This document shows positions 5,716 to 32,962 of a DNA stretch of 64,000 nucleotides, one piece after another. Origin of the DNA: an uncultured Isosphaeraceae bacterium (GTDB lineage: Bacteria > Planctomycetota > Planctomycetia > Isosphaerales > Isosphaeraceae). A program made the translations under genes and the position numbers. The first letter of the stretch is position 1. The number at the start of each line of letters is the position of its first letter. The stretch spans positions 1 through 64,000 of the forward strand of contig CALLYK010000284.1 of NCBI GenBank assembly GCA_937858365.1. Direction: 5' to 3'. The notes beneath the pieces are model-generated. The model did not search any database. It had not been told where the DNA came from and saw only the letters and a program-made list of their open reading frames with translations.

Positions 5716-6675
5716 TCAAAGCCAGGAAGCGCTCAAGGCCGCAAACATCGCTTCCACGTCGACGTTGCCGCCGCTGAGGATGACCCCCACACGTTTGCCG
5801 CTCACGTCCAATTGCTCGTTCAGCAAGCACGCGGCGGGCACGGCCGACGAAGGTTCGATGATGATCTTCATCCGCTCCCAGATGAACCGCATGGTTTCGA
5901 TGATCTCCCTTTCCGTCGCGGTCACGATTCGATCGACCTGTTGACGGATCGTGGCGAAGTCGCGTTCCCCAAGGGACGTCCGCAGACCGTCGGCCACCGT
6001 CCTGGGGTCTCCCGATGGCAGGATTCGCCCGGCCGCGAGCGAGCGCCTTGCGTCGTCGGCGTTGGCCGGCTCAGCGCCGACCACAAGCGTTGTCGGCGAT
6101 CGCCCCTTCACGCATATCGCCGTGCCGGAGAGCAAGCCGCCGCCGCCGCACGGCGTGATGACGATGTCCAACCGACCGACCTGGTCGAGCAACTCCCAGG
6201 CGGCGGTGCCTTGTCCCGCGATCACGTGCCAGTTGTCGTAAGGATGCACCAATGCGTAACCGTCCTCGGTCATCAAGCGGGCCACGGTCGCCTCGCGATC
6301 CGCGAGGGTCGGCTCGCATGATACGACGCGGGCACCGTAGCTTTCAGTGGCGGCCCGCTTCACGGCCGGCGCCATGCGCGGCATCACGATGCAAACCGGC
6401 ACGTTCAGCAACCGGCCGGACAAGGCGAGGGCCTGCGCATGGTTGCCGGACGAGTGCGTGATCACGCCGCACCGGCGCGCTTCCTCACCGAGTTGCAGGA
6501 CCGCGTTCATCGCCCCGCGAAACTTGAACGCGCCCACGCGCTGAAGGTTCTCGCACTTGAAGAAGACCTCGCCGCCGCAAAGGGTGTCAAAGACGCGCGA
6601 GGTCATCACGGGCGTGAGATGGGCCCACGGCTTGAGCCGTTCACGCGCTTCGCGGACGTCGTCGAGAGAGATCAT
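5716..6675 (-). CDS. PLP-dependent threonine/serine dehydratase-like enzyme
   Basis: Fold-type II pyridoxal-phosphate enzyme of 319 aa. The PLP lysine is in GAFKFRGA near residue 52, the substrate loop is SSGNHAQALA, and the phosphate cup is GGGGLLSG near residue 180. The length and the absence of a C-terminal ACT domain fit catabolic threonine dehydratase or serine racemase (TdcB/SR type) better than biosynthetic IlvA. Expected activity is deamination of Thr or Ser to the 2-oxo acid, or racemisation; sequence alone does not decide. It starts 7 bp after the GH116 stop and is the last gene of a NIPSNAP-GH116-dehydratase operon. Confidence 0.85.
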   Translation of the reverse strand: MISLDDVREARERLKPWAHLTPVMTSRVFDTLCGGEVFFKCENLQRVGAFKFRGAMNAVLQLGEEARRCGVITHSSGNHAQALALSGRLLNVPVCIVMPRMAPAVKRAATESYGARVVSCEPTLADREATVARLMTEDGYALVHPYDNWHVIAGQGTAAWELLDQVGRLDIVITPCGGGGLLSGTAICVKGRSPTTLVVGAEPANADDARRSLAAGRILPSGDPRTVADGLRTSLGERDFATIRQQVDRIVTATEREIIETMRFIWERMKIIIEPSSAVPAACLLNEQLDVSGKRVGVILSGGNVDVEAMFAALSASWL

Positions 6676-6682
6676 GGGAAGG

Positions 6683-9600
6683 TCATCCCAGGGTGATGGA
6701 TAGCGCCTGCCCGACCTCGATCGTGACCGCCTCGGCGAGCTTCACCAGCGACCGGCCTTGGAAACGGCCGACACGCGCGGCGATTTCTCGATGGCCCAGC
6801 GACGCGCGGGCGGTGGTGATTTCGTGCGGCGCTTTCGGCAGCAGGGAGACCGTCAGCAGCTTGAGTCGACCGCGGCGCACCGTGATCTTCGCCGTCATAC
6901 CGCGATGTTCGCGTTCTTGCTCGAACGCGCCCCAGCCTTCAGCGGCGGTGAAGGGGGCGCGGAAAGCGTCTGGAGTGAGTCGCGGGGCGAAGCCAATGTG
7001 ACCTTTTGGCCCGTGGTAATCGAAGCCGCAGACCGCGAGAAAGGCCCCGTAGGAGGCCATCGCCCGCGCGTAGTGGTCGGAGCATTCGACTTCGTTGTAT
7101 GGGTTGCGCTTCCGCGCGTCGTAGCGGTCGTGGATGGCCCGCGCGATCGCCAGGCCCGCTTCCAGCAGGTCGGGCTGGTCGATGCCTTCATAGATCATGT
7201 GAGCGGCGACTTGCCATTCAAATCCGCTCATGCACTCGTTGAAGTACATGAATTGCCAGTGTTTCTCCTGGTCGGGGCGTTGGCCGCCCTTGGGCCAGGT
7301 ACACATGAGCAGGCCGGCATCGCCCATGAGGGCGTACCAGCGGCCCCGCTTGAACTTCTCTCGGAAGGGCCCGACATCGGGCACGAAGTTGTATTTCCAG
7401 AGGGCCCTCAAGGCCGCGAGCAGCTTTTCGCGGTCGAAGAGGTGGCCGAGACCAAGCCAGTGGGCCCAAGTCTGACCGAAAACCTGGTCGATGTAACACC
7501 CCGCGCCGACGCCGATCGCGTTGGCGTGTTCGGGGTCTTCCTTCTGGATGAAAAACTCGCCGTTGAATAGGTCCAGGATCGTTCGCGACCCACGCCCGGC
7601 GATCGCTCGACAGCGGTCGGCGAAGGGGTCGTCGCCCATTTCGCGGGCCATCGTCTCGCCGGCCTTGAGGGTCGCGAGATAGAGCGAGGCCAGGAAGGGG
7701 ACCCGGCCGTACCATGCCGCGTCGAGGGTGTTGGGCTGGGCCCCTTCGATCATGCCGTCGCCATCACCGTCTTGCTTGATCAGATATTCAATCGCTTTTT
7801 TGATGTTGGGCCACAGCGTGCGAAGGAAACGATCGTCGGGTGAGCAAAGGTGCTCTCGGTAGGCCCCCAGGATGCGTCCGCACTGGCCATCGTGGGCCGG
7901 CTCGTTCGCTCCGTTGAGGTTCGCGCGCATGCCGATGCCGCCGTCCTCGTGTTGTGCCAGGCCGAAATCGACGCGCCGGCGGGTGTCGCGTTCCAGTTCG
8001 GGGAAGAGCCATCCAGGCGCCTGGGCGTAATGCCAAACGTGCGTGCAGGTGCCCTCGCAGCAGCCGACCCCCTCCCAGGCCCAGAAACGGCCGTCGCGCA
8101 GGCGATAGCAGGTCGTCGTCGCAAGTGTGGACGTGTTGGCCATCGTCCGGTCGAGGAACCAGTAAGGAAGTGTGGAATCGTACCAGGTCTCGACCCATTC
8201 GCGGGTGTCGCCAATCAAACGTTCTTGGTTTTCATGGACGTAACGAACGACGGCCGCGGCGTCGTCGAAACGTGTCGCGTAGTGGTGTCCCACGGGCGTG
8301 TCGCCCAGGCCGCGCGCCCGGAAATTCGGGAAGTGCCAGGCGACGACGAACGTGAACGTTTTCGACTCTCCGGGGGCGAGGGTGGTTGATTTGCTCAGGT
8401 CTCCCTGAAGGCGTTCGGTGAGCGGTCGAGCCATCGAGTTAGAGGGACCCATGTCGGCTTCATCTTCACCCAGAAGGCCGATCGCCATCGTGCCGAAATC
8501 GAGTCGTTCGGAAATCGGCGCGGTGGAGGGGCTGTCGGAGAAGACGATTTGGTCCACGCCGATGTTGCCCCAACTGCCAGTCGCCTCATCGACGACTTCG
8601 AGGCGGGCCTTGCGCTCGACCCATCGCGCGACCGAAAACGTGCCTGGGGCCATGCGATTCGCGGCCCTTCCCGTTGCCGAAAGCACGACCTCACCGTCGA
8701 TCAGCAAATTCAAGCATGTTTTGCCTGGATGATTTCCACCGCCGATGAGAAAGTGAACATAGTCTCGTTCGATCACGAACTCCGGGCTGATGAGTCTGCC
8801 GGTCCGCGCGTCCTTCTCGGCGATCGTGTTGCCTGGGGCGGAGGCGTGACTGTTCACAACCCGCCCTCCGTGGCCGCCGACCTCACCCTGATAGCTGGGC
8901 ATCTTGGCCATTTCGACCGGCCCGGCGCCGAAGGCCGTCCCTTCGGTCTTCCAAAGCGAGTAGGTCTCTCCCTCGAAGTCAGCGAAGAGGATGTCCGGGC
9001 GGGCGCGAGGGTTGGGCGTTTCCTTGGCGGAAGCGACCAGGATCGTCAGGCCGGGTCTCCTGAGCACGCGATTGATCGCCTCGCCGGGCGGGACTGGTCC
9101 CAGGGTCCGGCAGACGACGTTGTTGAGCCAACCGTGGGCCCGACAGGGGACCGCTTCCCGCGACGTGTTCCTGACGGTCAAGCGGTAGATCGTGGCCGGT
9201 AGTGAGGATGCCTCAAGGTCCAGAGGGACGAATGGGGAGAACGTCTCGATGTCGATCTCGACGGGTAGGCCAGGATCGCGCTTGCTGATCCGAGCGATCG
9301 GATAGCGGCCGTCGAACGTGGTCTTGGGCACCAGCCCGACGGGAGTAGGCACGTCGATGCCGAAGCCGGCGACGAGTGTGTCGGCCCGTCGCGCCGGCTC
9401 GACGAAATTGGCCCCATCGCGCGGGCCGAACTTCGCTCCCGCGTATTCGACCTGGCGCGGCTGGATACCTTCCTGGTCGTGATTGAAGACGTCCCAAAGC
9501 CAGAGTTCCCCCTGGCCGTTGACGTACACGGTGCCGGCGAAGAGGCCGCCCACCGGCATGCCGATGTGCTCCAGTGGCCCGGGTTCGTCGTAGGTTGGCT

Positions 9601-17996: not shown

Positions 17997-19394
17997 CTAT
18001 CTTCCCCCAGCTTCCCGGACTCGCTCCTGAAGCGCCTTCATCAAGAGCGGGGCGACTTCCGGCCCGACACTGTTCACCTCCCCGTACTGTTTCTCCTTCC
18101 GTCCATAGGCGAAGGGGGCCTTATCGTCCCATTGCCGCTTGGGAATGATGTAGCCCACTTCATCGCTCGCTAGACCGAACAGAAGTTTCGCCTTTCCAGG
18201 AAGGCTCGTCATGACGGGTGGCTCGAGCGGAGCGTCGGGAAAGTCCACGTTCGGATCCACCGGCTCCTGATAATGGCCGTACACCAATTCTGGGTAGAGC
18301 TCTCCAGGAATGGCGGCGATGTGCAGGTCACCCAGACGGAGGTAGGAGACTTCCGTTTGGAGCGCGATGTCGCCATCGACTTGCGTGGGCCCGGCCGGTT
18401 CGGGGGGACCGGCGCCGTCTCGTTTCCAGAGGAACGCCTGCCGCGGAAGGACACCGATGGCCCGTCCTTGCCGATAGCCGGGATTGGCCAGGGGGATGAG
18501 AACGGGCGCCGTCGAGACCACGAAGGGCGCCAGGCCGACCGCCTCGGTCTTCTCCAGGGCCTTGTCGGTGAGGTGGGCCACCGCTTCGCCGAACGCGTCG
18601 GCGAACTCGAACGTCGAGTCTTTCACCACGGTCCCGTCGGCCTTGCGATGCTCTCCGGGGTTGGTCATGAGGCCGCCGACGGCCCCCGTGAAGTAAGCCA
18701 CGGGCACTTTGTGTTTGGCCTCAAGGGCCCTCACGGTCGCATAAGGGAAGTCGGCGGTGACGAGCGTGTTGCGCGAGCCGAGGCTCTCGGGGTGGCAGTT
18801 CCATTGGACAAGCAGGCCTATCGGTTGGCCCCCGTCCGACTTCTCGAACCTGACCACGCGCAGTACGGGGTCCTTCACGATCGGCATGCGGGCGTCTTTC
18901 AGGAGGTCGCCATCTTCGGCCGTCCCGTAGGTGGCCTTGGCGGGAGCGGCGCCGCCCTCGGCCTCTTTCACCGATGCCACCACGCGATCGACCACGAAGG
19001 CGAGGTAGCTCGGGTCCACCCCGCTCTCGCGCGGCGACGGTCCCCAAAGACCGATGACGTCCGGGGCCTCGTGGTTGTGCGTGCTCGACACCAAAACATG
19101 GGCGTAACCCGGCAATTTGTCCCGAATGGCCATCACGGTGGGACGCTGAAGGCCGACCAAGTCCACGGAAACGAGGGCAACCTTGCGGTCCCCGTCGCGT
19201 AGGACGACCGCGCGTGACCAGAGCGGGTCGTGGACGCCGGTCGCCTTACGGTTGTTGCCGTAGCCGGCGAGCCAGGCCGTGTGCTTGCTCAGGTCCGGAG
19301 TGATGTCCGTCTTACCAAAGCCGACTGAAACATCGGCGACGACCGTCGTCCCCGCCAGAAGAAGGGTGCCAACGACGCCCAGAGTTGCCGCCAT
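17997..19394 (-). CDS. Neutral/alkaline non-lysosomal ceramidase-like protein
   Basis: A 465-aa exported protein with a Sec-type signal (GVVGTLLLAGTTVVA). It matches the neutral ceramidase N-terminal domain: VGFGKTDITPDL at the start, ALVSVDLVGL, and the zinc-binding SSTHNHEAPDVIGLWG. It lacks the long C-terminal immunoglobulin-like domain of Pseudomonas ceramidase. The frame is open to 19430, but the ATG at 19394 is preceded by GGGAGG at five bases and is preferred. Family members hydrolyse N-acyl bonds of ceramides; many planctomycete homologues have no known substrate. A GH116 glucosylceramidase homologue lies 8 kb away. Confidence 0.85.
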   Translation of the reverse strand: MAATLGVVGTLLLAGTTVVADVSVGFGKTDITPDLSKHTAWLAGYGNNRKATGVHDPLWSRAVVLRDGDRKVALVSVDLVGLQRPTVMAIRDKLPGYAHVLVSSTHNHEAPDVIGLWGPSPRESGVDPSYLAFVVDRVVASVKEAEGGAAPAKATYGTAEDGDLLKDARMPIVKDPVLRVVRFEKSDGGQPIGLLVQWNCHPESLGSRNTLVTADFPYATVRALEAKHKVPVAYFTGAVGGLMTNPGEHRKADGTVVKDSTFEFADAFGEAVAHLTDKALEKTEAVGLAPFVVSTAPVLIPLANPGYRQGRAIGVLPRQAFLWKRDGAGPPEPAGPTQVDGDIALQTEVSYLRLGDLHIAAIPGELYPELVYGHYQEPVDPNVDFPDAPLEPPVMTSLPGKAKLLFGLASDEVGYIIPKRQWDDKAPFAYGRKEKQYGEVNSVGPEVAPLLMKALQERVREAGGR

Positions 19395-19591
19395 GAGTGC
19401 CTCCCGTCGATGCCTGCGCGCAATGAGCAATCATGCCAGGCTAGCGGTCGTTCCGAGTGCCCGCAAGACGAGAGGACGTCCCAGCGGCTTTTCCCTCAGA
19501 ATTGGGGTGAAGAGAGTAATGGCGCTATCCGGTGTGCTGTCAGGTCTCTTGACGGACCTTTGCCGCGAAGCGGCCATCGACCCGCCGTTGA

Positions 19592-19608
19592 CCAGGGATT
19601 TTGTAGGG
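19592..19608 (+). repeat. IS left terminal inverted repeat
   Basis: 17 bp, exact inverse of 21659-21675. The pairing extends outward with mismatches to about 19578. Confidence 0.85.
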
Positions 19609-19622
19609 GGAGTTGATTAGAC

Positions 19623-21035
19623 TCACCGGAAGCGGAAGTCGAGTTCGAAGTCGTAGAGCCAGGGGACGCGAGGGTCGATCCCTTCGGCCTTGAGACGCTT
19701 GGGCAAGTCTTCGTAGTGCTCCTTGAGTCGCTCCGCTCCGGGTGCGTTGTAGTACGTCACTTGTATGGTGTTTCCGTCCACGACACGCACGTCCCCTTCC
19801 AGACCCGCGAATAGCGTCCGCGCCAGGTGCTCCGCGTCCCAGTTCGACTCCGGCCCCCCCAACCGCTTCCTCATTTGATGGGTCGCCGCTTGTGCGATCA
19901 ACGAAATCGTCATTTGGCCATATCTTATGTTCATGTTCCATGTCCCCGCGCGGTCCCAACCCAGCGACTGCTCCGCGTTGAAAAACTCCTCCACGTGCCA
20001 TCGCTTGGGGTAGTGTTCGGTCAGGTCCGACACCTCCTCGCCGTCCCTCGTCGACAGAAACGCTTTGAAATGATATTCATCGGGCAACTCTCCCGATCGC
20101 TGAATATATTGATAAAATGGCCCCTCGGCGCAGCGGCGCGGCGTGTAGGCCCGCTTCATCGTCGCGAACCCGGCCCGCCGCGGCTGGAAGCACTCGGCGG
20201 GGATGTTCCGGTATTCTCGCATCATCGCGCGTTGGTTGGGCATGGGTACCAACATGTCGAAGCCCGTCCGGCCCCGGACGTGGTCCAGTAATTGGGTCGT
20301 GAAGTGTTCGGAGTCGACCACCACCAGCGCCCCATGGCCGCGCGGCCCCAGGACGTCGGCGACCAGTCCCAGCAGGTCTTCGGCCGCGTCGGCGGCGGTG
20401 CGCGCGGCCGTGCCGGTGGTGAATCCCACGGGCTGACCGGTGTCGGCGTCGAGGGCGAAAAAGGTCTGGGCCGTCTTGATCGCGGGCCGGTTTTCGCCGT
20501 CGCGACGCCGGGGCATTCGGCGTTTGCTGTGGCTGCGCACGCGGTGCGGGTCGACCGCGAGCACGCGACCTTGGAAGTGTCCCGAGGCCAAACGGAGCTT
20601 GCCCAGGGCGACTTGCAAGGCGCGGGCCCGGGCGACATCGCGCGCGGCGAGAAGGTCGTGGATGGCCCAGTCGGAGGCGAGGAAAGGCAGGCCGCAGGCC
20701 AGTTCCAAGCCGCGCTGGTCGGTGCAGCGACGGGCCCGCACGCCGGTGACGCAGAGGGCCGCCTCGCACATCAGTTGCAGGGCCAGGCGGGGCTCGACGT
20801 GACCCGCGGGGCGACCGGTCCAGGCGCGCAAAAGGTCCCACGCGCCCAGGCGAAGCAGTTCGGGGACGAGCAGCCAAAGCCCGACGAGGTTGCCCGAGAC
20901 CTTGTCGGCCAGGGCCTGGCGGACGCCCCGTTCCAGGCTGAGGCTGTCGACCTGGACGCGCTTGAGTCGCTCCCGACCGGAGCGGGCCTCGAGCGGCGGT
21001 TCGGGTTGCGGTCGAAAACTATAGAGTTTTTTTTT
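19623..21035 (-). CDS. Transposase, DDE domain (frame B)
   Basis: About 470 codons in the -strand frame that begins in the A9 tract; it has no own convincing start, and the open frame upstream merely overlaps frame A. DDE residues: AVDPHRVRSH (first Asp), VVVDSEHF (second Asp) and YPKRWHVEEFFNAEQ, the Y-x2-R-x3-E signature of IS4-type transposases. The final position of that signature (normally Lys) is Gln. The protein is presumably made only as a fusion to the HTH frame by slippage. It ends 15 bp inside the left inverted repeat, as expected of an intact element. Confidence 0.8.
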   Translation of the reverse strand, partial: KKKLYSFRPQPEPPLEARSGRERLKRVQVDSLSLERGVRQALADKVSGNLVGLWLLVPELLRLGAWDLLRAWTGRPAGHVEPRLALQLMCEAALCVTGVRARRCTDQRGLELACGLPFLASDWAIHDLLAARDVARARALQVALGKLRLASGHFQGRVLAVDPHRVRSHSKRRMPRRRDGENRPAIKTAQTFFALDADTGQPVGFTTGTAARTAADAAEDLLGLVADVLGPRGHGALVVVDSEHFTTQLLDHVRGRTGFDMLVPMPNQRAMMREYRNIPAECFQPRRAGFATMKRAYTPRRCAEGPFYQYIQRSGELPDEYHFKAFLSTRDGEEVSDLTEHYPKRWHVEEFFNAEQSLGWDRAGTWNMNIRYGQMTISLIAQAATHQMRKRLGGPESNWDAEHLARTLFAGLEGDVRVVDGNTIQVTYYNAPGAERLKEHYEDLPKRLKAEGIDPRVPWLYDFELDFRFR

Positions 21036-21426
21036 GAAGGCCGAAGTCGGCGATGACGCGTTCGACGCTGCGCGTGGAGACGGCGAAGCCGGCTTGGCGG
21101 AGTTTCTGGGCGATGACGTCGGCGGAAGCGTCGGGGTCGAGGAAGCGATGGCGAATGACCTGACGCACGACCTCGTCGGTGCGGACATGAGGGGCTTTGG
21201 GACCGGTCTTGCGGAGTTGGAGGGCCTCGGAGCCATGTTCACGAAAGGCGTTGAGCAGTTGATAATATCGAGGTTTGCTGAAACCATACTTTTCGGCCGA
21301 GGCGCCGAGGCCCCCGCACTGACCCTCATAAAGCATGAGGAAGCGAGGGAGAAGTTGATCATGGGGCGGGACTGGGAGTTCGCCGTGAGGACCGACGATG
21401 CGGGACTCTGGGAGGAGGAATTGCAT
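21019..21426 (-). CDS. Transposase, helix-turn-helix N-terminal part (frame A)
   Basis: A 135-aa frame with GGAG upstream of the ATG. GASAEKYGFSKPRYYQLLNA is a helix-turn-helix that probably recognises the inverted repeats, and ADVIAQKLRQAGFAVSTRSV is a second HTH-like block. It terminates at 21019 just past AAAAAAAAA (the complement of T9 at 21027-21035). Skipping one A on this tract enters frame B and gives a fusion of about 600 aa. Confidence 0.8.
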   Translation of the reverse strand: MQFLLPESRIVGPHGELPVPPHDQLLPRFLMLYEGQCGGLGASAEKYGFSKPRYYQLLNAFREHGSEALQLRKTGPKAPHVRTDEVVRQVIRHRFLDPDASADVIAQKLRQAGFAVSTRSVERVIADFGLQKKTL

Positions 21427-21490
21427 GGGAGGGTCTCCTGGCCTGGAGTGAAGAGACAGGGCCCAGGATAGCCTGAGGGGGGCGGATAGT

Positions 21491-21593
21491 CTAATAAATT
21501 ATGGCGGTTAATCTGGCGAGGCGAGGGTGAACGGGGGACGAAATAGCACAAATTCAGAGAGACACGAGGAGTGATGCCGCCATAATTTATTAG
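21491..21593. repeat. 103 bp segment bounded by 17 bp perfect inverted repeats
   Basis: CTAATAAATTATGGCGG (21491-21507) and its exact complement (21577-21593) flank 69 bp without coding potential. It lies between the transposase start and the right end of the IS. Candidates are a small non-autonomous element nested in the IS, or a hairpin shielding the transposase from outside transcription. Confidence 0.75.
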
Positions 21594-21658
21594 TCGCAGG
21601 AGGCGGCCAAGCGAGTGCGGACACAGACCGAGCGAGGGCCAAGCGTCCAAGAAACAGG

Positions 21659-21675
21659 CCCTACAAAATCCCTGG
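21659..21675 (-). repeat. IS right terminal inverted repeat
   Basis: 17 bp, exact inverse of 19592-19608, with imperfect outward extension to about 21689. It lies about 175 bp from the end of the last paralogue gene. Confidence 0.85.
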
Positions 21676-21850
21676 CTTACGGCGGGGCGGGACTTGAGTG
21701 GTCCAGGGGCCCACGTCCCTGGCTAATGGTTTGCGCCCCTTCGGGGCTGCAAGAAAAGTGGGGCGATTGGGTGGTCCAGGAGTTCCACCCATGGCTACAG
21801 ATGGTCGCCTCGTCGAGGCCCAAACCCGGCCACGAAATTCGGCTGACCGG

Positions 21851-23125
21851 TCATCGAGAATGCTCGTCAGAGCAGGGTCGGTCCTCGCCTTGCTCTCGCT
21901 TTCGAAGCTGGCCTTCGACCTCTTCGAGCAGTCGTTCGCGGGCCGATGCGTCCTTTCTCATGGACTCCAGGAAGTTCGGGGCCCAATTCATCGGGAAGGG
22001 TCGGACGGCCAACGATTGATGCCAGCGCGCCAGGTCCTCGGGCTTGATGTTCGCGACGGCCGCCGGCGCGGTCTCATCGAACGGAAAGATGAGCGGTTCC
22101 TTGGACCACGGCTCGGGGCGTTCGTGAGGCGCCTTCGCGAACTGCGGCAAGTGGTTGGCCCAGAACAAGCGGAGCACGCGGCGTGTCCGCTCAGCCTCGT
22201 GGCCCGACGCGAGCCGTGCCTCAAACGTCCATTCCCGTGGGTCCATGCGCGGGACCGCGCGGCCCAGCACGTAGATGGGGGGCCCCGGGGCGCCTTGTTG
22301 CCGGAGCTGTCGAGCGATTGTGGCGAATTCCTTGGGGTCGAGCGTGGATTGCAGCGTGATCATGTATTCAAGCTTGAGAAGATTGTCGTCGTGTGGGGTC
22401 ATCGCGTCGATCGTCTTCAGGTCGGCCCTGGCCTGGCGGAGCAAGGTCGCATCGACGCGCGGGTCGGCCGCCCAGACGATTACTCGTTCACTCGCCTTTT
22501 GATAAATCGAAATGCCGACCAGACGCTCGATCAAGAAGCCGTTCGTGCCGCTGTGCCGGCTTGAGCGCAGGGCGGCGCGATACCACACCCAGGCCCCCGC
22601 CATGTCCCCCTCGTCTTCGAGGCGTGAACCTTCCAGCAAGGCCAAGGTCAAGAAGCAGTGGCGCAACTCCTGCGTGATGGGCAGAAGCGTTTGAGTGCCA
22701 ACCTCCTCGAGGCGGTGGTGGAGGGCCTTGTCTTGTTCGGTCCCTTTCCTCCAGAGTTCGAGGGCCGGCCGGTTCTCCTCACATCGGGCCCTCAGCGCCT
22801 CGTCGGCCAAACGCCAGTGGGTCGGGGGATCGTTCCCTTGGGCCAGCCCTTCGAATGGTCGATTGCGATTGGGAAGCAGTGCGTTCCAGGCCAGATCATA
22901 GTAATAAAACGCGTTTTCATTCTTGGGAATGTCGTTGGGAAAATTATGAATGAAGGCATCCAAATCGAACGGGTCGCCGATGTCGGGGACGCTCGCCAGT
23001 TCGAGCGCGTCGCGGGTCGCGGCGACGACCACGATCAGGACGGGCACGGAGAGGACCGCCAGGGTCCAGCGGGCCCACTTGGGCAGTCGCCTGCGCGCTT
23101 TGGCCGGCGTGTCGGTCGTGGTCAC
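21851..23125 (-). CDS. Tandem paralogue family, copy 1 (C-terminally shortened)
   Basis: A 424-aa membrane-anchored protein and last gene of the five-paralogue operon. A basic N-terminus precedes one membrane helix near residues 18-38, then VPDIGDPFD. Shared blocks are NAFYYYDLAW, PALELWRKGTEQDKAL, the helical EGDMAGAWVWYRAALRSSRH, and WAADPRVDATLLRQARADLKTID. Unlike its sisters it lacks the conserved end with ELxG and LP. It stops after LRKREQGEDRP, as if truncated, about 175 bp from the insertion sequence. It overlaps copy 2 by 4 bp. Function unknown. Confidence 0.75.
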   Translation of the reverse strand: MTTTDTPAKARRRLPKWARWTLAVLSVPVLIVVVAATRDALELASVPDIGDPFDLDAFIHNFPNDIPKNENAFYYYDLAWNALLPNRNRPFEGLAQGNDPPTHWRLADEALRARCEENRPALELWRKGTEQDKALHHRLEEVGTQTLLPITQELRHCFLTLALLEGSRLEDEGDMAGAWVWYRAALRSSRHSGTNGFLIERLVGISIYQKASERVIVWAADPRVDATLLRQARADLKTIDAMTPHDDNLLKLEYMITLQSTLDPKEFATIARQLRQQGAPGPPIYVLGRAVPRMDPREWTFEARLASGHEAERTRRVLRLFWANHLPQFAKAPHERPEPWSKEPLIFPFDETAPAAVANIKPEDLARWHQSLAVRPFPMNWAPNFLESMRKDASARERLLEEVEGQLRKREQGEDRPCSDEHSR

Positions 23126-24480
23126 GGCTGGGTCTCCGAGGTGGGCACGACGGTCAGGGGCGGGTCCATGGGCCCGAATTCCGGAGGCAGTTCGTCGAGG
23201 TAGGTCCCCACCAGGTCGCCGAGCGTCTTGGGGGGAGAGCCCTTCTCGCGTCGGTATAGGAGTTCAGCCAGTGTGACCACGAGGCCATCATGGCGCAGGC
23301 GCTCGCGGTCCATTGCGTTGAGGCATTGGCTGACCGCCGGCAGGATTTGGCGCGCCAGCGGGGCCTTCCGGACCTGGCGTTCCAGTTCCTCCGGAGGCAT
23401 GAGATGGGCGTCGCGCGGCGGGTGCTGTCCGGGCTTGAATTGGGACAGGGCGGCGGTGCCGGTCTGGCCGGGGCGCTCGTCGCGAGGCAGGTCGCAGTAG
23501 GCGAGCCAGTTGGTCGCCCAGAGGCGATAGAGGCGGCGGCTCCGCTCGGGTTCGTGGAGCAACCAACGAGTCCCCTTCGCGCCCATCGGCAGGAAATCGG
23601 CGAGTTGCTGGTCTCCTCTCAGGGCCTCGTCTTCGAGTTTGGCGGCCTCCTTAGGATCATTCATGAGGTTCATCGCCGTAACGTATTCCTGCTGGAACGA
23701 GAACGAGTTGGGGACCCAGGTCCGTTGAAACGCCTTGGCGTCTTCCAGGGCGGTGCGGAGCAAGGAGGTGCTCGTGCGCGCGTCGTCGGCCCAGTTCTCA
23801 ATCGCGCCGGCTGCCTGGCCGTGGAGGTTTACGCCGACCAAGTGGGCGATCAAGGGCCCGCTCAGGGTCGCGTGGCGCGACGATCGGAGGGTGCCTTGGT
23901 GCATTCGGTAGGCCCCCGCCATGTCGCCTTCGGCTTCGAGGCGGTCGGCCTCGAGCTTGGCCAGCCGGGCGAACTCGCGAAGCTGTTGAAGGATCGTCAT
24001 CTGCGTGTCAATCCGCAGGTCGGCGGGCTTGACGTCGAGCGCGTCGGGGCATTGGGTCGCGATTAGCCAGAGCTCGAGCGCTTCGCGATTGTCGTCGAGC
24101 CATTGGCTCATGTCGGGCTGAGCGCGATTGGTCCTGGGCGTGGCGGGGCGAGGCGTGGCGCTCGCGGAGGCCAGACCGGCCGACGTGGGTTGAAGCGCCT
24201 TCATTTTCTCGCTCGCCCGGCGATAGAAGACGAAAGCGTTGCGTTCATCGGCCACTTCGCGAGCGGTGTACTTCCGAACGTCGAACGGGTCGCCCACGCG
24301 AGGGATTTCCATCAGGCGCGCCTCGCGCCATCCAAGAAGCAAGATGGGGATGGCGATCAAGACATAAAGCAAGAGGAGGAAGAAGCGCTGACGGCCGCTC
24401 GATCTTTCCAGCAGATAGGCGGGAAAGAGGACCACGTGGAGCAAGCCGAATGGCCTGGATGGTTGCGTGGTTTGGGTCAT
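23122..24480 (-). CDS. Tandem paralogue family, copy 2
   Basis: A 452-aa protein. ERSSGRQRFF precedes a membrane helix near residues 33-51, followed by GWREARLMEIPRVGDPFD. It shares NAFVFYRRA, EALELWLIATQCPDAL, EGDMAGAYRMHQGTLRSSRH and EPERSRRLYRLWATNWLAYCD with its sisters, and the end motif LLYRREKGSPPKTLGDLVG followed by LDELPPEFGPMDPP. The helical centre looks repeat-like and the bulk should lie outside the cytoplasm. Both ends overlap neighbours by 4 bp, so translation is coupled. No known family recognised. Confidence 0.78.
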   Translation of the reverse strand: MTQTTQPSRPFGLLHVVLFPAYLLERSSGRQRFFLLLLYVLIAIPILLLGWREARLMEIPRVGDPFDVRKYTAREVADERNAFVFYRRASEKMKALQPTSAGLASASATPRPATPRTNRAQPDMSQWLDDNREALELWLIATQCPDALDVKPADLRIDTQMTILQQLREFARLAKLEADRLEAEGDMAGAYRMHQGTLRSSRHATLSGPLIAHLVGVNLHGQAAGAIENWADDARTSTSLLRTALEDAKAFQRTWVPNSFSFQQEYVTAMNLMNDPKEAAKLEDEALRGDQQLADFLPMGAKGTRWLLHEPERSRRLYRLWATNWLAYCDLPRDERPGQTGTAALSQFKPGQHPPRDAHLMPPEELERQVRKAPLARQILPAVSQCLNAMDRERLRHDGLVVTLAELLYRREKGSPPKTLGDLVGTYLDELPPEFGPMDPPLTVVPTSETQP

Positions 24481-25820
24481 GGCTTCTCCTCCGGTTCGTC
24501 GATCGGCGGGCCGAGCCTAGCGGGTCGATTCGACGTGGCCGACGAAGGCGGGTCGTCGGGCGAGAGGCCACCGGGTAGCGCCTGAAGGTCCGGTCCGAGC
24601 AGGTCGCCGAGCCTCGCCGGCGCTGTACCGTGTTCGCGTTGATAGAGTTCTTCGGCGAGTGTCAGAATCAAGGTCTCGTGGCGCCGGGTTTCACGATCGA
24701 TCTCGGTGAGCAAGCGGGCGGCGGGTGGGAAGACCACGCGAAGCAAAGCGGAAGAGGACAAGGCCGGTTGGGGTCGTTCGGGGCCCTCTTGAAAGAGGGG
24801 GAAGGGGCCCGATTTGATCAAGGAGGGTCGTTGCCCCGGAGGCAAGTCGCAGGCGGCGAGCCAGTTGGCCATCCAGAGGCGATAGAGACGTCGGGCCCGC
24901 TCGGGTTCGTGCTTGAGCCAGAGGGAAACCTGAGGTCCGAAGGGGCGGAATTCCCCCTCGTCGTCGCCCCGCGCGGCGCGTTCCTCAATGGCCTCAACGA
25001 CCCTGGCGGGGTCGGCCAGGAGCTTCATCGTTCGCTGGTATTCGTGCTTGAACGTGAAAGAAGTCGGGAGGCGGTCCTTCTGGAAGCGGACCGCGGCGAT
25101 GAGTGCCGCGCGGAGTTCGGGGGCTTGTGTCCGCGAGTCTTTGGCCCAGGTGTCGAGGGCCACGGCGGCCGACGCGTGCATCCCGACCGCGACGAGTCGA
25201 GCGCCCAGGGTGCGTTCCAAGGCGGCGTGGCGCGACGACCGCATGAGACCCAAGAGCATGCGCGATGCGCCCGGCATGTCGCCTTCGCGTTGGAGTCGCT
25301 CCGCTTCGAGGCGTGCCGTTCGGGCGAAGTCGCGCAGCAATTGCAGGGTCTCTTGTTCCGGTTCGGGGCCCGTGTCGGCGAGCGGGGGTTCAAGGGCGTC
25401 GGCGCATTCGGTGGCCGCGAGCCACATGGCGAGGGCCTTCTGATTGTCCTGCAACCACTGATCGATATTCGGCGCGCCGCGGGGCCGATTGGGGGCCGGC
25501 GGTCGCGCGGCGCCTGGGCCCATGCCGATGGGCGCCGGACCGGGCATCGCGAGGGGCCGAGAGTGGTCCGAGGCCAGCCAATACAAGACGATCGCGTTGT
25601 CCTCATCGGCCAAGTCGGGGGCCTTCACGTCGGCGAGGTCGAACGGGTCGCCACCGTCGGGAATGGTCCAAAGGCCCACTTCGCGCCAGGCGAGGACCAG
25701 CAAAGGAAGCGCGACCACGACGCTGAGAAGGACCAAGCGTCGGCGGCGGGCGGGACGTTCGACGACGGCCGCGGTTTGGGGCGTCTGGCCTTCGGACGGG
25801 TCTCCGTGAGGCTCTGTCAT
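24477..25820 (-). CDS. Tandem paralogue family, copy 3
   Basis: A 447-aa protein with a membrane helix near residues 30-48 flanked by ARRRR and by LAWREVGLWTIPDGGDPFD. It contains a Pro/Gly/Ala-rich insertion (residues about 95-120, PGPAPIGMGPGAARPPAPN) that is longer than in copies 4 and 5. Family blocks KALAMWLAATECADAL, EGDMPGASRMLLGLMRSSRH, EPERARRLYRLWMANWLAACD and LYQREHGTAPARLGDLLG are intact. The insertion and the MANWLAACD block make it closest to copy 2. Its start is 43 bp downstream of copy 4, the only gap in the array. Confidence 0.78.
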   Translation of the reverse strand: MTEPHGDPSEGQTPQTAAVVERPARRRRLVLLSVVVALPLLVLAWREVGLWTIPDGGDPFDLADVKAPDLADEDNAIVLYWLASDHSRPLAMPGPAPIGMGPGAARPPAPNRPRGAPNIDQWLQDNQKALAMWLAATECADALEPPLADTGPEPEQETLQLLRDFARTARLEAERLQREGDMPGASRMLLGLMRSSRHAALERTLGARLVAVGMHASAAVALDTWAKDSRTQAPELRAALIAAVRFQKDRLPTSFTFKHEYQRTMKLLADPARVVEAIEERAARGDDEGEFRPFGPQVSLWLKHEPERARRLYRLWMANWLAACDLPPGQRPSLIKSGPFPLFQEGPERPQPALSSSALLRVVFPPAARLLTEIDRETRRHETLILTLAEELYQREHGTAPARLGDLLGPDLQALPGGLSPDDPPSSATSNRPARLGPPIDEPEEKP

Positions 25821-25863
25821 GGCCGGTCCTCGAGATGCGCGTGGGCCTGGTCGATCACTCGGA

Positions 25864-27201
25864 TCATTCGGTGGGAGTATAACCGTCCGGGACCCGCTCC
25901 AGGACCGTCCCGATCAACTCGTGATGTGTTTCAGGTTCGCGGCCTTGTTCGCGGCGGAAGACTTCTTCCGCCAGGGCCATCACCAGGTCGGCGCGGCGCG
26001 ATCGGTCGCGGTCGGCCACTTTCTGAAAGGCCCAATGGGCCGGAAGGAGCGCCTTGACGATCGCCGTGGATTCGACTCGCACGGCCAAGGCACGCGCGCC
26101 CAGGGCCGCTTCGGGGTGGCCGTCGTAGAACCAGGGGGAACTGCGCGGGCCATCGCGAGGCGGCCTCACGAGGTCGGGCGGGCCGACCAGCGCCGGGCGC
26201 GTCTCTGCGGGTCCATCGCAATGGGAGAGCCAGTTTTGAAAGGCCAAACGAATCAAGCGCCTCGAGCGTTCCGGTTCGTTGGTGAGGAACCAGCGTGCTC
26301 GTTGAGCGCCGGGTAGATGGTTGTACCAGGCCGTGCGGTCGATCGAGCCGAGGGACCAGGGGTCATCGAGGAAGAACTCGCGTAGGGCGACGGTGTCGTC
26401 CAGCGTGTTCATCAGGCTGAGGTACTCCACCTTCATCGCGTTGGAATCGGGAAGTGTGAGCACGTTGATTTCGCCTATGTCATTCAGGGCCCGACGGAGA
26501 AGCGCGGGTCCCAGGCGCGGGTCGGCCATCCAGGTCTTGGTCAGGTCGGCCCCTTGAGCGTACTCGGCCGAACCGACCATTCGGGCGATCGCGATGCCAT
26601 TCCGGCCCACGAGGCGACTCCCGCGCAAGACGGCGCGGAGCCAGCCCCAGGCCGCTTCCAGGTCCCCGTCGGCATGACACTTGGCGGCGTGCAGCAGGGC
26701 CAAGCGGACAAAGTGGCGGTGGTCTTGCACGTCGGGCAAGGTGGATTCGATGTTCAGTTCCGAGACCGGTCGCTCCAGTGCGTCGGCGCATTCGGTGCCC
26801 TTGCGCCAAAGGGCCAGGGCCGCCTCGTTGCGTCGCAGGTATTCCAACGAGCGAGCGTCGGACCCAGCGGGCCAGGTCCAAGGGTTCTTGAGGACCCGCC
26901 GTTCGATCGTTTCGGAGCGTTCGGACCGCTCTCGGGCCCGATGGAAATAGGTGAAGGCGTTATCTTCCTCGGCCGGCTGGAACGATCGGAACGCGACAGT
27001 GTCGAAGGGGTCGCCCACGTCGGGCAAACCGACAAGCCGCGAGGCCCTCCAGGCCAAGACTAACGGGATTCCGGCGAGCGACAGAAAAAGCAACAACAAG
27101 GCCAGGCGCCGCCGCCCTCGTGTACGTTCCAAAAGACGCGCTGGCCACAAGGCCCCGTGGACCAGACCCCTCCATCGCGGCGGTCGAGGAATTGGCGTCA
27201 T
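25864..27201 (-). CDS. Tandem paralogue family, copy 4
   Basis: A 445-aa protein. ERTRGRRRLALLLLFLS marks the basic edge and start of the membrane helix, followed by RLVGLPDVGDPFD. Blocks: NAFTYFHRA, ALALWRKGTECADALERPVSELN, WGWLRAVLRGSRLVGRNG, WYNHLPGAQRARWFLTNEPE, FQNWLSHCDGPAETRPALVG and VFRREQGREPETHHELIG. It is much more similar to copy 5 than to copies 1-3, suggesting a recent duplication. It overlaps copy 5 by 4 bp. Confidence 0.78.
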   Translation of the reverse strand: MTPIPRPPRWRGLVHGALWPARLLERTRGRRRLALLLLFLSLAGIPLVLAWRASRLVGLPDVGDPFDTVAFRSFQPAEEDNAFTYFHRARERSERSETIERRVLKNPWTWPAGSDARSLEYLRRNEAALALWRKGTECADALERPVSELNIESTLPDVQDHRHFVRLALLHAAKCHADGDLEAAWGWLRAVLRGSRLVGRNGIAIARMVGSAEYAQGADLTKTWMADPRLGPALLRRALNDIGEINVLTLPDSNAMKVEYLSLMNTLDDTVALREFFLDDPWSLGSIDRTAWYNHLPGAQRARWFLTNEPERSRRLIRLAFQNWLSHCDGPAETRPALVGPPDLVRPPRDGPRSSPWFYDGHPEAALGARALAVRVESTAIVKALLPAHWAFQKVADRDRSRRADLVMALAEEVFRREQGREPETHHELIGTVLERVPDGYTPTE

Positions 27202-28538
27202 GGGGTGTCCTCGGTGGGCTTGTGGCCGTCGGGAAATTGCCCCAACACATCGCCGAGCAATTCATCCGACGACGCGGCGTCACGGCCATGTTCGCGGCGG
27301 AAGACCTCTTGAGCAAGGGACATCACCAAACCGGCGCGCAAGCCGCGCTCGCGATCGCAGGTCCGCAGAAAGGCCGATTGCGTCGGGAGGAGCCAGGGAG
27401 CTAGCAAGGCCCTTTCCACGCGCGCCGCGAGCGCTCGCGGACCTGGTCCCGCCGGCGGCGCGACGTCGAAGAACCGTGGCGCATCCGGCGAACCCGGGCG
27501 CGCCTGTACGGGCTTGTCTTGGGCGCCGATCAGCGCCGGACGCTCGTCGCTGGGGTCGTCGCTGTGGGCCAGCCAATTCGAGAAAGCGAGGCGCGTGAGG
27601 CGCCTGGAGCATTCCGGCTCGTTGTTCAGGAACCAGCGCGCATGGTGATACGCGGGCAGATGGTTATACCAGGCGGCGCGGTCGAAGACGTCGGCGGAAT
27701 AGGGTTCGTTGAGGAAGAAACCGCGAATCTTCTCCGGTCCTTCCAGGCCCTTCATCACCGTCAGGTACTCGACCTGAAGGGCCTCGTGGACGGGCGCGGT
27801 CAGGGCGTTGATCTCCTCGACGTCCCGTAGCGCCTGCCGCAGCAGGTGGGCCCCGACGTTCGGGTCGGCCATCCACGGCCGAGCGAGGTTCACGGCAACA
27901 CCGTACTCGGCCGTGCCGACAAGACGCGCGATGATCGTCCCGTTGCGTCCCACCAGTCGACTGCCGCGCAGGATCGCGCGCAGCCACTCCCAGGCCCCGG
28001 CGAGGTCTCCTTCAGATTGACATCTCGAGACATGAAGACAAGCAAGACGCACAAAATGACGATGCTCCTGGATATCGGGCAAGAGCGAGTCGAACGAGAG
28101 TTCGCCGATGGGTCGTTCTAGGGCGTCGGGCCGCTCGGAGCCCCGCTTCCAGAGGGCCAGCGCCTCCTCATTGCGTTCGAGATACGCGAGTCCTTCCGTG
28201 TCTGTCGGCGCGGGCCAGGCGTAGGGACTGTTCAAAAGCCGCAACTCGGCGGCCTTGTCGTGGTGCGACAACGAGCGGGCCTCGCGATAAAGGACAAAGG
28301 CGTTCTTCTCGTCGGCCACGCGAAGGGTCAGAAGCGGGGTGGGGTCGAACGGGTCGCCAACGTTGGGCAAACCCACCAGCCGCGCCTGACGATAAACGAT
28401 CATGCCGATCCCGGAGCCGACCATGAAATAGAGCAGCACCAAGAGCGAGCGCCGCCGGCCGCGCGCTCGTTCGACCCAGCGCAAAGGGGCAAGGGCCACT
28501 CGCGAGAAGGACCATTGCAAGGAAGGCGTGTCGCTCAC
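27198..28538 (-). CDS. Tandem paralogue family, copy 5 (first gene of operon)
   Basis: A 446-aa protein starting with GTG, preceded by GAGGGAG. ERARGRRRSLLVLLYFMVG begins the membrane helix, and ARLVGLPNVGDPFD follows. It shares the copy-4 blocks RPIGELSFDSLLPDIQEHRH, WEWLRAILRGSRLVGRNG, WYNHLPAYHHARWFLNNEPE, FSNWLAHSDDPSDERPALIG and VFRREHGRDAASSDELLG. A sigma-70-like promoter lies 33-62 bp upstream (28571-28600, minus). As first gene it probably sets expression of the whole array. Confidence 0.8.
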   Translation of the reverse strand: MSDTPSLQWSFSRVALAPLRWVERARGRRRSLLVLLYFMVGSGIGMIVYRQARLVGLPNVGDPFDPTPLLTLRVADEKNAFVLYREARSLSHHDKAAELRLLNSPYAWPAPTDTEGLAYLERNEEALALWKRGSERPDALERPIGELSFDSLLPDIQEHRHFVRLACLHVSRCQSEGDLAGAWEWLRAILRGSRLVGRNGTIIARLVGTAEYGVAVNLARPWMADPNVGAHLLRQALRDVEEINALTAPVHEALQVEYLTVMKGLEGPEKIRGFFLNEPYSADVFDRAAWYNHLPAYHHARWFLNNEPECSRRLTRLAFSNWLAHSDDPSDERPALIGAQDKPVQARPGSPDAPRFFDVAPPAGPGPRALAARVERALLAPWLLPTQSAFLRTCDRERGLRAGLVMSLAQEVFRREHGRDAASSDELLGDVLGQFPDGHKPTEDTP

Positions 28539-28570
28539 GATCGCGGTCTCCCTCTTATCGCGGGACGATC

Positions 28571-28600
28571 AGGATAGCCCTCAACTCACCTCTTGGTCAA
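28571..28600 (-). promoter_or_regulatory. Promoter of the five-paralogue operon
   Basis: On the minus strand TTGACC (28600-28595), 18 bp spacer, TATCCT (28576-28571). Transcription would begin about 25 bases before the GTG of copy 5, leaving a short leader with GAGGGAG. Confidence 0.5.
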
Positions 28601-28622
28601 TGACAAACGTCCGAGATAGGAT
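28593..28622 (+). promoter_or_regulatory. Candidate promoter of the FAH-family gene
   Basis: TTGGTC (28593-28598), 18 bp spacer, TAGGAT (28617-28622). The -35 box overlaps that of the divergent operon, so the two promoters may compete. Weaker than the minus-strand match. Confidence 0.35.
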
Positions 28623-28702
28623 GCGGCTGGTGCCCTCTGGTTCATTTGGGTCGCACGGGTTAGGCTCGATGCGATCATCCAGGATCCCGAGGGGCGAAAG
28701 CG

Positions 28703-29557
28703 ATGCGTTGGGCGACCGTGCGAGGTGAATGGGGTCCGAGGGTCTGCGGGGTCCGCGTGAATCGTTGCATCGACGTCAACGCGGCCGACCCCTCGCTGCC
28801 TTCCAACTTGAAGGACCTCCTGGAGATGGGGCCCGGAGGGCTCGAGCAGGCGGCGGCGGCGGTGCAGAGCGGCTCGATCGGATTCGACCTGGAAACAGCC
28901 GAGTTGATGTCCCCTGTGCATGACCCGGGGAAGATCATCTGCCTGGGCTTGAACTACCGGGATCACGCGGCCGAGAGCAACGCGCCGGTCCCCGAGGAGC
29001 CGATCCTCTTCAGCAAGTTCAACACGGCCCTCATTGGTCATGGCCGGCCGATCGTCTTGCCGGAGGTGAGTCAGCAGGTCGATTACGAGGCGGAATTGGT
29101 CGTGGTCATCGGCCTCAAGGGCAAGGACATTCCGCGCGAGCGAGCGATGGAGCACGTCGCCGGTTATGCCTGCGGGCACGACGTCTCGGCGCGGGATTGG
29201 CAACTGAACAAGCCGGGCAAGCAGTGGCTCGCGGGCAAGACGTTCGACACGTTCGCGCCAGTCGGGCCCTACATGGTCACGGTCGACGAGGTGGCCGACC
29301 CGCACGCCCTGAGCGTGAAGCTGCGTCTCAATGGCGAGACGATGCAGGACTCGTCCACCAGCCAACTCATTTTTAAGGTAGACGAAATGATTTCATATAT
29401 ATCGAAGATTGTCACATTGATGCCGGGCGACCTGATCTACACGGGCACGCCGCCGGGCGTGGGGATGGCGCGAAAACCGCCGGTCTTCCTCAAGAAGGGG
29501 GACGTGGTGGAGGTCGAGATCGCGGGTCTGGGGACCTTGAGGAACCCGGTCATCTGA
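28703..29557 (+). CDS. Fumarylacetoacetate hydrolase family protein
   Basis: A 284-aa enzyme with the FAH fold: CLGLNYRDHAAESN, the metal-binding DYEAELVVVIG, YACGHDVSARDWQ, GKTFDTFAPVGPY and YTGTPPGVGM near the C-terminus. Such proteins act as Mg/Mn-dependent hydrolases, decarboxylases or isomerases on 2-oxo acids (acylpyruvate hydrolase, HpcE-type). The exact reaction is not evident. Length and motif order are complete. Transcribed divergently from the five-paralogue operon. Confidence 0.9.
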   Translation: MRWATVRGEWGPRVCGVRVNRCIDVNAADPSLPSNLKDLLEMGPGGLEQAAAAVQSGSIGFDLETAELMSPVHDPGKIICLGLNYRDHAAESNAPVPEEPILFSKFNTALIGHGRPIVLPEVSQQVDYEAELVVVIGLKGKDIPRERAMEHVAGYACGHDVSARDWQLNKPGKQWLAGKTFDTFAPVGPYMVTVDEVADPHALSVKLRLNGETMQDSSTSQLIFKVDEMISYISKIVTLMPGDLIYTGTPPGVGMARKPPVFLKKGDVVEVEIAGLGTLRNPVI

Positions 29558-30393: not shown

Positions 30394-31272
30394 TCAGCGT
30401 CGGAGTCGTTCGGTGAGGACCCGGACATCAGTCGATTCCGGGGCCAACCTCAACGCGCGTTCGGCGATCCGGAGGGCGCCGGGACGATTGTCTTGACCTT
30501 CGTGGGCCAGGGCCAACGTGTAGAGCACATCGGGCCGCGCGGGGAGTTTCTCCGCGGCCAAAGCCAGGTCGGCGAGGGCCTCGGGATATTGCTTCAGGGC
30601 GAGATACGCCTGACCGCGACGGAAGCGAGCCTCCGGGTCGTCGGGGAGACGTTCGATGACCATGTCCAGTCGTGCCAGGGCCTGGTCGGCCTGTTGCCGT
30701 TGGAGTTGGATGGTCGCCACGCGCAAGAGCGTCACGGGGTCGTTGGGGTCCAGTTCCAGGGCCCGAAAATAGGCGGCCAGGGCGTCTTCGGTGCGCCCCA
30801 GGGCCTCAAGGGCACGCCCCCGCGCCGCTTGGGCCGTGGCCCTTCTCGGCTCCAAGTCGATGGCTTGATCAAGCGGTCCCAGGGCCTCGCGGTAGCGGCC
30901 CGCGCGAACACGGACCAGGCCCAGACCGCTCAAGGCGTCGACATAGTCCGGGTCGATCTCGAGGGCGCGCATTTCGGCGGCCTCGGCGTCGCCCAGGCGG
31001 TCGGCGGATGCGTAAACGCCGGCCAGGCGGTGATGGGCCTCGGCGAGGTTCGGTGCCTCGCTCAGCAGGTGTCCCAGAAGGACCTCGGCGCGGGGCAGGT
31101 CGCGGGCGTCAATCGCTTGCTGGGCCTGCTGACTCAGGCGATGGCGCTGCTCGACCTGCTCGTTCGTCGGCCGATCGTTCCGACGACGGACCACGGCGCA
31201 ACCCGAACACGCCAACCACCCCAGGGTCGCCAGCAAACCGGCGATGACGACCCGTTGCCGCACGGCGGCCAT
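30394..31272 (-). CDS. TPR-repeat lipoprotein-like protein
   Basis: A 292-aa protein with an N-terminal export signal (VVIAGLLATLGWLACSGC) that ends in a lipobox-like CSGC, followed by about six tetratricopeptide repeats (for example AEAEMRALEIDPDYVDALSG-type units from residue 55 to the end). TPR arrays serve as protein-interaction scaffolds. GGAGG directly abuts the ATG at 31272, so the GTG nine bases further in (31263) may be the real start. Likely periplasmic, partner unknown. Confidence 0.82.
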   Translation of the reverse strand: MAAVRQRVVIAGLLATLGWLACSGCAVVRRRNDRPTNEQVEQRHRLSQQAQQAIDARDLPRAEVLLGHLLSEAPNLAEAHHRLAGVYASADRLGDAEAAEMRALEIDPDYVDALSGLGLVRVRAGRYREALGPLDQAIDLEPRRATAQAARGRALEALGRTEDALAAYFRALELDPNDPVTLLRVATIQLQRQQADQALARLDMVIERLPDDPEARFRRGQAYLALKQYPEALADLALAAEKLPARPDVLYTLALAHEGQDNRPGALRIAERALRLAPESTDVRVLTERLRR

Positions 31273-31829: not shown

Positions 31830-31999
31830 GGTCCTCAACTCCGGAAACGTACGAATCATGCACGCGGCGATGCGGGAATGGGGCACGACCTCGGCCCAGC
31901 TTAACGCGGCCGGACCAGGCTGGTACAGTGGGCGGACCAGAATGCGTCCCCGGGCCGGTCCACGCGGGCCGTCCTTCAACCCACCGCCAGCGAGCCGTC

Positions 32000-32962
32000 A
32001 TGCGCGTCCTGTCCGGCATCCAACCATCGGGCCCCCTTCATGTCGGCAACTATTTGGGGGCGATCCGTCAGTACCTGGCCCTTCAGCGCGACCACGACGC
32101 CTATTACTTCGTCGCCAATTACCACGCCCTGACCAGCGTGCGCGACGCGGCCGTCTTGCGGGCATACACCAACGACGTGATCGTGACCTTGCTCTCGCTC
32201 GGCGTGGACCCGGAGCGCGTCACCCTGTTTGTTCAGTCGGATGTCCCCGAGACGACCGAGCTCGCTTGGCTCCTAACGACCGTGACGCCGATGGGCTGGC
32301 TTGAAAAGTGCGTCAGCTTCAAGGACAAGGTCCAGCAGGGCCTGCCCGCCGACCACGGCCTGTTCGCCTACCCGGTCTTGCAAGCGGCCGACATCCTCCT
32401 TTATGACGCCGACACGGTGCCGGTCGGACAGGACCAGAAGCAGCACTTGGAGATTACTCGCGACATCGCCGAGCGTTTCAACAACACCTATGGCGAGACC
32501 TTCAAGCTGCCCGAGCCGCACATCCTGCCGTCGGTCGCGGTGGTGCCGGGGATCGACGGCCGCAAGATGTCCAAGAGCTACGGCAACACCATCGACGTCT
32601 TCGACGACCCGAAGACGATCCTCAAGAAGTGCAAGAAGATCGTCACCGACAGCACGCCCGTGGAAGACCCCAAAGACCCCGACCGCGACAATCTCTTCCA
32701 ATTGTTCAAGCTCTTCGCGCCCGGCGATGAAGTGGCCGACGTGGAGCGTCGGTATCGCCAGGGAGGGATCGGCTACGGTGAGGTGAAGACGGGACTGGCC
32801 GCACACCTGAGCGACCACTTCGCCGCCGCGCGCGAGCGTCGGGCCGAGTGGCTGGCGCATCCGGTCCGTGTCGAGGAGGTCCGGCGCAACGGGGCCGAGA
32901 AGGCCCGCAAGACGGCGCGCATCGTCCTGGACCGGGCCCGGGCGGCTTGTGGTGTCAACTGA
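32000..32962 (+). CDS. trpS: Tryptophan--tRNA ligase
   Basis: Class Ic aminoacyl-tRNA synthetase of 320 aa, normal bacterial length. It charges tRNA-Trp with tryptophan. The HIGH equivalent is HVGN at residues 14-17 (SGIQPSGPLHVGNYLGA) and the KMSKS loop is RKMSKSYGN near residue 190. GQDQKQHLEITRDIAERFN is the Trp-binding helix region. The frame opens at 31928, but the conserved MRVLSGIQPSG begins at 32000. Cytoplasmic and probably essential. Confidence 0.97.
   Translation: MRVLSGIQPSGPLHVGNYLGAIRQYLALQRDHDAYYFVANYHALTSVRDAAVLRAYTNDVIVTLLSLGVDPERVTLFVQSDVPETTELAWLLTTVTPMGWLEKCVSFKDKVQQGLPADHGLFAYPVLQAADILLYDADTVPVGQDQKQHLEITRDIAERFNNTYGETFKLPEPHILPSVAVVPGIDGRKMSKSYGNTIDVFDDPKTILKKCKKIVTDSTPVEDPKDPDRDNLFQLFKLFAPGDEVADVERRYRQGGIGYGEVKTGLAAHLSDHFAAARERRAEWLAHPVRVEEVRRNGAEKARKTARIVLDRARAACGVN

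Follow-up and report, generated by a model that had tools for sequence, protein, structure and literature searches.

A five-gene array of uncatalogued single-helix membrane proteins at a conserved Isosphaeraceae locus

What use might a bacterium have for five adjacent, diverged copies of one membrane protein? The question is raised by a stretch of 64,000 nucleotides from an uncultured Isosphaeraceae bacterium (contig CALLYK010000284.1, hereafter the window), which carries on its minus strand, at positions 21851-28538, an array of five genes that we call g1 to g5 in order of transcription. A preliminary description of the sequence had taken them for coupled paralogues of an unrecognised membrane-anchored family and had read their number as implying joint, possibly hetero-oligomeric function. 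We find that the array belongs to a planctomycete family with full-length homology to a domain fused to ABC-2 permeases, and the classification of array and family presented here is very probably right. G000 denotes the source genome (its contigs are written as, for example, G000:C84), other G numbers the compared genomes and L numbers the extracted loci.

Five paralogues at a conserved locus of varying copy number

The array comprises g1 (27198..28538; 446 amino acids (aa), GTG start), g2 (25864..27201; 445 aa), g3 (24477..25820; 447 aa), g4 (23122..24480; 452 aa) and g5 (21851..23125; 424 aa, GTG start), the last and most divergent of the five. Neighbouring genes overlap by 4 bp at the g1/g2, g3/g4 and g4/g5 junctions, and a 43-bp gap separates g2 from g3; strand, lengths and spacing are all as first described. 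Pairwise identity is 32-52% over ~390-440 aligned codons (52% between the sisters g1 and g2, 45% between the sisters g3 and g4), and 53 columns of the five-protein alignment are invariant, including P..GDPFD, NA, EY, RR..RL and RE.G, such that the five are true paralogues and not alike by chance. Hydropathy places one hydrophobic helix in each protein, inside residues 18-51 and behind a basic N-terminus (at about 31-49 in g1, 33-51 in g2 and g4, 30-48 in g3 and 18-36 in g5). GDPFD follows at residue 61, 63, 57, 63 and 50 of g1 to g5, respectively, and REHG stands at residue 415 of g1. The shared architecture proposed earlier, in which a basic N-terminus and a single membrane helix lead into GDPFD and a helical body, is therefore borne out, and the motifs listed with it are real, apart from the end of g5 described below.

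No Pfam-A or NCBIfam model scored above its curated cut-off for any of g1-g5, in agreement with the view that the family is unrecognised. The first 60 residues of the five proteins hold no prepilin peptidase motif ([GA][FMLIVYW]xxxE) and the first 45 no lipobox pattern, and none of the five, each with its single helix, matched the ABC-2 Pfam models or a multi-spanning domain. All five frames are intact, and NG86 estimates of nonsynonymous and synonymous divergence (dN/dS) are 0.41/1.30 for g1-g2 and 0.52/1.28 for g3-g4, values that are indicative only, with dS near saturation. Since nonsynonymous change is rarer than synonymous change, the array does not look decayed.

Family matches occurred in 40 of the 59 genomes searched as relatives. 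A scan of 84,980 species, with one genome each, returned 20 family loci, all in planctomycete records, Singulisphaera and Paludisphaera among them, while a search of plasmids with the family gave no match. Across the phylum, 82 of 294 genomes had a match at E 1e-3, mostly to distant proteins of 400-600 aa. Within the source genome, g1-g5 are the sole full-length stand-alone members.

Beyond g1 lie three genes that mark the locus in other genomes: an FAA hydrolase family gene just outside the array (28703..29557, plus strand; PF01557, E 1.8e-79), a TPR lipoprotein-like gene (30394..31272, minus strand) and a gene that, recognised from its sequence alone, we take to encode a tryptophanyl-tRNA synthetase (TrpRS; 31928..32962, plus strand), which is 76-79% identical across loci. 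In other genomes, too, the FAA hydrolase gene is transcribed away from the family gene. G006 (L037/L078) has one family gene flanked by all three markers, G001 (L092) one flanked by the FAA hydrolase and TPR genes, and G031:C18 (L084) three in tandem with all three markers, so that the syntenic locus holds one, one and three copies in these genomes and five in the source genome; single family genes beside the TPR and TrpRS genes are also found in G018 (L081) and G010 (L093). This locus excepted, the neighbours of most stand-alone relatives differ, and no conserved operon partner emerged. An array unique to its genome and decaying had been named as a finding that would refute the first reading: uniqueness is false for the family and for the locus and true, in the genomes that were compared, of there being five copies at that locus, and decay is contradicted by the constraint described above.

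In the family tree, whose bootstrap support is not fully settled, g1 groups with g2 and g3 with g4 (each 100/100); the pairing of g5 with the syntenic gene of G006 (83/1) has no real support. The arrays of G031 are likewise mostly genome- or genus-specific. Copies in family f1 group by genome and not by array position; only in family f2 is a tandem pair common to different genera (L055, L059), which indicates that arrays can be stable. Because copy number at the locus varies and copies group by genome, the simplest reading of the comparisons is that a single gene at a conserved Isosphaeraceae locus gave rise to the array by lineage-specific expansion, and that such expansion was repeated in other lineages. 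The array would then show a single-copy envelope gene growing into a five-gene operon.

As a separate observation, the family genes of G031 number ten and lie at three loci, with five at L082 (7431-14165), two at L083 (7904-12122) and three at L084 (7517-11517), an independent large expansion.

Homology to a permease-fused domain and to pseudopilin tails

The open frames of ~1000 aa in which the family gave weak matches turned out to encode ABC-2 permeases with the family domain at their C-terminus. These fusions are about 900-1050 aa long, with PF12679, PF12698 and PF12730 in their N-terminal part. In each of the five cases tested, the gene directly upstream encodes an ABC ATPase (PF00005, E 1e-24 to 1e-28); one of these cases is the source genome, where fusion and ATPase occupy 5973-8966 and 8798-9931 of L156 (G000:C84). 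Compared as profiles, the fused domain and the window family (A5 against A1) align over 387 columns, starting at the membrane helix and reaching the LP end, with probability 99.8 and E 2.3e-29, as against E 0.4-0.96 for reversed and shuffled controls. When run on the source genome, the fused-domain profile retrieved that genome's fusion first, followed by the five window genes and nothing else (E 4e-32 to 4e-21). By this similarity over the whole domain, the window family belongs with an otherwise unnamed C-terminal domain of Isosphaeraceae ABC-2 permeases. The fusion is present in 27 of 45 Isosphaeraceae genomes and was not seen at E 1e-15 in 148 other sampled genomes of the phylum.

A second homology concerns the C-terminal tail. 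Full-length relatives end in a consensus, HG.yP..L..LvP.yL..lP.DPf...p..Y......YSvG.dG.dDGG, and a profile of 16 such tails (A4) matched GspG major pseudopilins in the PDB, led by 2kep at E 2.1e-4, with five more GspG chains at 0.05-0.18; one contributing tail (L121) has several wrong residues N-terminally, outside the columns that best match GspG. The same profile aligns to the C-termini of the window proteins at E 3.2e-7 (controls 0.26-0.77), upholding the earlier impression of a pseudopilin-type end. The alignment is confined to columns 3-45, the first 43 columns only, which indicates that the window tails correspond to the first half of the relatives' tail. Window proteins and other Isosphaeraceae members retain the helix and loop (P..L..LvG..L..LP) and lack the strand and DDGG half. 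The complete GspG arrangement of C-terminal helix, loop and beta-sheet with a calcium loop is thus not found in the window proteins; its strands and DDGG loop are present in relatives.

The end motif REHG...ELxG followed by LP, which had been ascribed to all five proteins, is complete in g1-g4, while g5 stops 11 residues after REQG. Truncation of g5 by an insertion sequence downstream of it was considered and rejected: the element lies beyond the g5 stop, and L037, the syntenic single-copy relative in G006, ends at the same point, also without ELxG..LP.

An AlphaFold2 model of g2, built with 29 relatives, is all-helical and of high confidence (predicted local distance difference score (pLDDT) 85.9, predicted template modelling score (pTM) 0.84). 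A model of the full-length relative L053 (pLDDT 79.8) shows a similar order of helices, plus a long helix and three short strands at the C-terminus. Foldseek found no match to the g2 model in the PDB (best E 0.68), and nothing below E 0.2 for one model against viral predictions; by fold, L053 likewise had nothing below E 0.2 in the PDB, and its tail did not retrieve GspG. Against PDB sequences, the sole match to the family profile was a coiled-coil fusion construct (E 0.12).

A possible role at the membrane, and competing readings

How might such proteins work? In the mechanism that we tentatively propose, each protein would be tethered in the cytoplasmic membrane by its one N-terminal helix. 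The body is probably extracytoplasmic, given the basic N-terminus ahead of a single helix and relatives with signal-like N-termini; it is predicted to be almost wholly helical, ends in the first half of a GspG-like tail and would provide, on the outer side of the membrane, a surface for binding or scaffolding. Fused to an export permease, such a surface might act in cis, and in a stand-alone protein on its own, with the five copies having diverged in putative client or partner specificity. This mechanism, the leading one of those considered here, is by itself rather less likely than not to be right and far less secure than the classification, and the two taken together we consider evenly balanced between right and wrong.

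Three observations weigh against this proposal. No conserved set of residues in the family appears catalytic or ligand-specific; neither the array in the window nor most stand-alone relatives have ABC genes for neighbours; and stand-alone and fused forms do not co-occur significantly among the 45 Isosphaeraceae genomes (16 with both, 6 with stand-alone genes only, 11 with the fusion only and 12 with neither; Fisher p 0.13), so that the stand-alone proteins are independent of the fused transporter. The last two also bear on the likeliest alternative, that the array proteins serve an ABC-2 exporter as accessory components in trans, its permease and ATPase being encoded at another place in the genome. 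Full-length homology to the fused domain speaks for it, as does the permease-ATPase pair at G000:C84, but the non-significant co-occurrence, the lack of ABC genes adjoining the array and the near-complete genomes G001, G010 and G018, which have stand-alone genes and no fusion at E 1e-30, make it unlikely.

Somewhat less likely still is a single hetero-oligomeric membrane complex in which each of the five paralogues is a separate subunit with a position of its own. Such an assembly would fit the tight translational coupling at three 4-bp overlaps, the long-standing divergence of copies whose frames are intact and whose substitution is constrained, and another five-gene array, in G031:C1; relatives nevertheless hold one or three copies at the same locus, and copies in f1 cluster by genome and not by array position, the cross-genus tandem pair being found only in f2. 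With one to five copies at the locus and copies that cluster by genome, five different subunits are no conserved requirement. A five-subunit hetero-oligomer is possible, and the comparative data do not imply it, contrary to what the coupling of the genes had first suggested.

A broader statement, for which we see slim prospects, would make the family a phylum-wide set of uncatalogued extracytoplasmic helical modules that have a pseudopilin-derived tail and a fold without counterpart in the PDB, deployed in ABC-2 exporters, HAAS signalling proteins and single anchors, with the five copies here forming a mixed envelope complex. That the expansion was selectively neutral or a matter of dosage, with no functional diversification, is improbable: copy number does range from one to five at the same locus, but proteins only 32-52% identical are far too diverged for dosage, and their frames are intact with fewer nonsynonymous than synonymous changes. 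Membership of a pseudopilus, or of a fibre like that of type II secretion, suggested by the GspG-related tail, is largely refuted and very improbable, as the proteins have no prepilin peptidase motif near a basic N-terminus that precedes the membrane helix, lack the half of the tail with beta-strands and calcium loop, and bear a 350-residue helical body without pseudopilin counterpart.

These findings give a large unnamed set of proteins a defined architecture, a conserved locus, a profile ready for use and, in ABC-2 permeases and GspG tails, two links to what is already known, and they open to testing many hypothetical proteins throughout the phylum.

Surroundings of the array and comparison with known systems

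The operon promoter is presumed to lie at 28539..28702, where g1 and the FAA hydrolase gene diverge. A scan for promoters and terminators gave one -35/-10-like match there (28600-28571, minus strand), a weak piece of evidence, and was otherwise uninformative. Downstream of g5 lies an insertion sequence (19578-21689) bounded by imperfect 45-nt terminal inverted repeats (19578-19622 and 21645-21689, 78%), with a DDE transposase (PF01609) in a frame of 675 aa. A helix-turn-helix-like frame of 135 aa (21019-21426) overlaps the start of the longer frame, as if the two were joined by frameshifting, and upstream of it, still within the element, is a perfect 17-bp inverted repeat (21491-21507 and 21577-21593) with a 69-nt spacer. 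Past the insertion sequence is a neutral/alkaline ceramidase-like gene (17997-19430; PF04734, E 3.6e-15).

Tandem arrays of diverged, uncatalogued membrane proteins are in themselves no new kind of thing. In the part of the literature that our search covered, we found no description of the family, of its link to ABC-2 permeases or of the clipped pseudopilin-like tail.

Among known systems, the proteins resemble TPR helical repeat proteins in their all-helical antiparallel hairpins, and g5 gave a weak match to a hemY-type TPR model (E 0.009); they differ in that no TPR model reached threshold for g1-g5 and no fold in the PDB matched better than E 0.68. Some relatives elsewhere in the phylum belong with HAAS-prefixed planctomycete membrane proteins (PF22564), in which a HAAS segment and a membrane helix precede the same body and tail, whereas the window proteins have no HAAS segment. 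Such a HAAS-like segment ahead of the membrane helix was noted in the distant relatives L105, L114 and L122, a possible link to PadR-type signalling proteins; L114 scored 27.1 bits at a 27-bit cut-off, and L105 fell below it.

With the C-terminal domain of GspG (PF08334, T2SSG) the likeness lies in a helix followed by G.yP..L..LvP.yL..lP.DPf, and full-length relatives also share the strand and loop of the end, Y.....YSvG.dG.dDGG. The window proteins differ in having the first half only, no prepilin signal and a tail that follows a large helical body. The most extensive likeness is to ABC-2 permeases with their ABC ATPase, whose C-terminal domain in Isosphaeraceae is homologous to the window proteins over its full length, including the membrane helix; the window proteins, in contrast, are single-helix proteins with neither a permease part nor a neighbouring ATPase.

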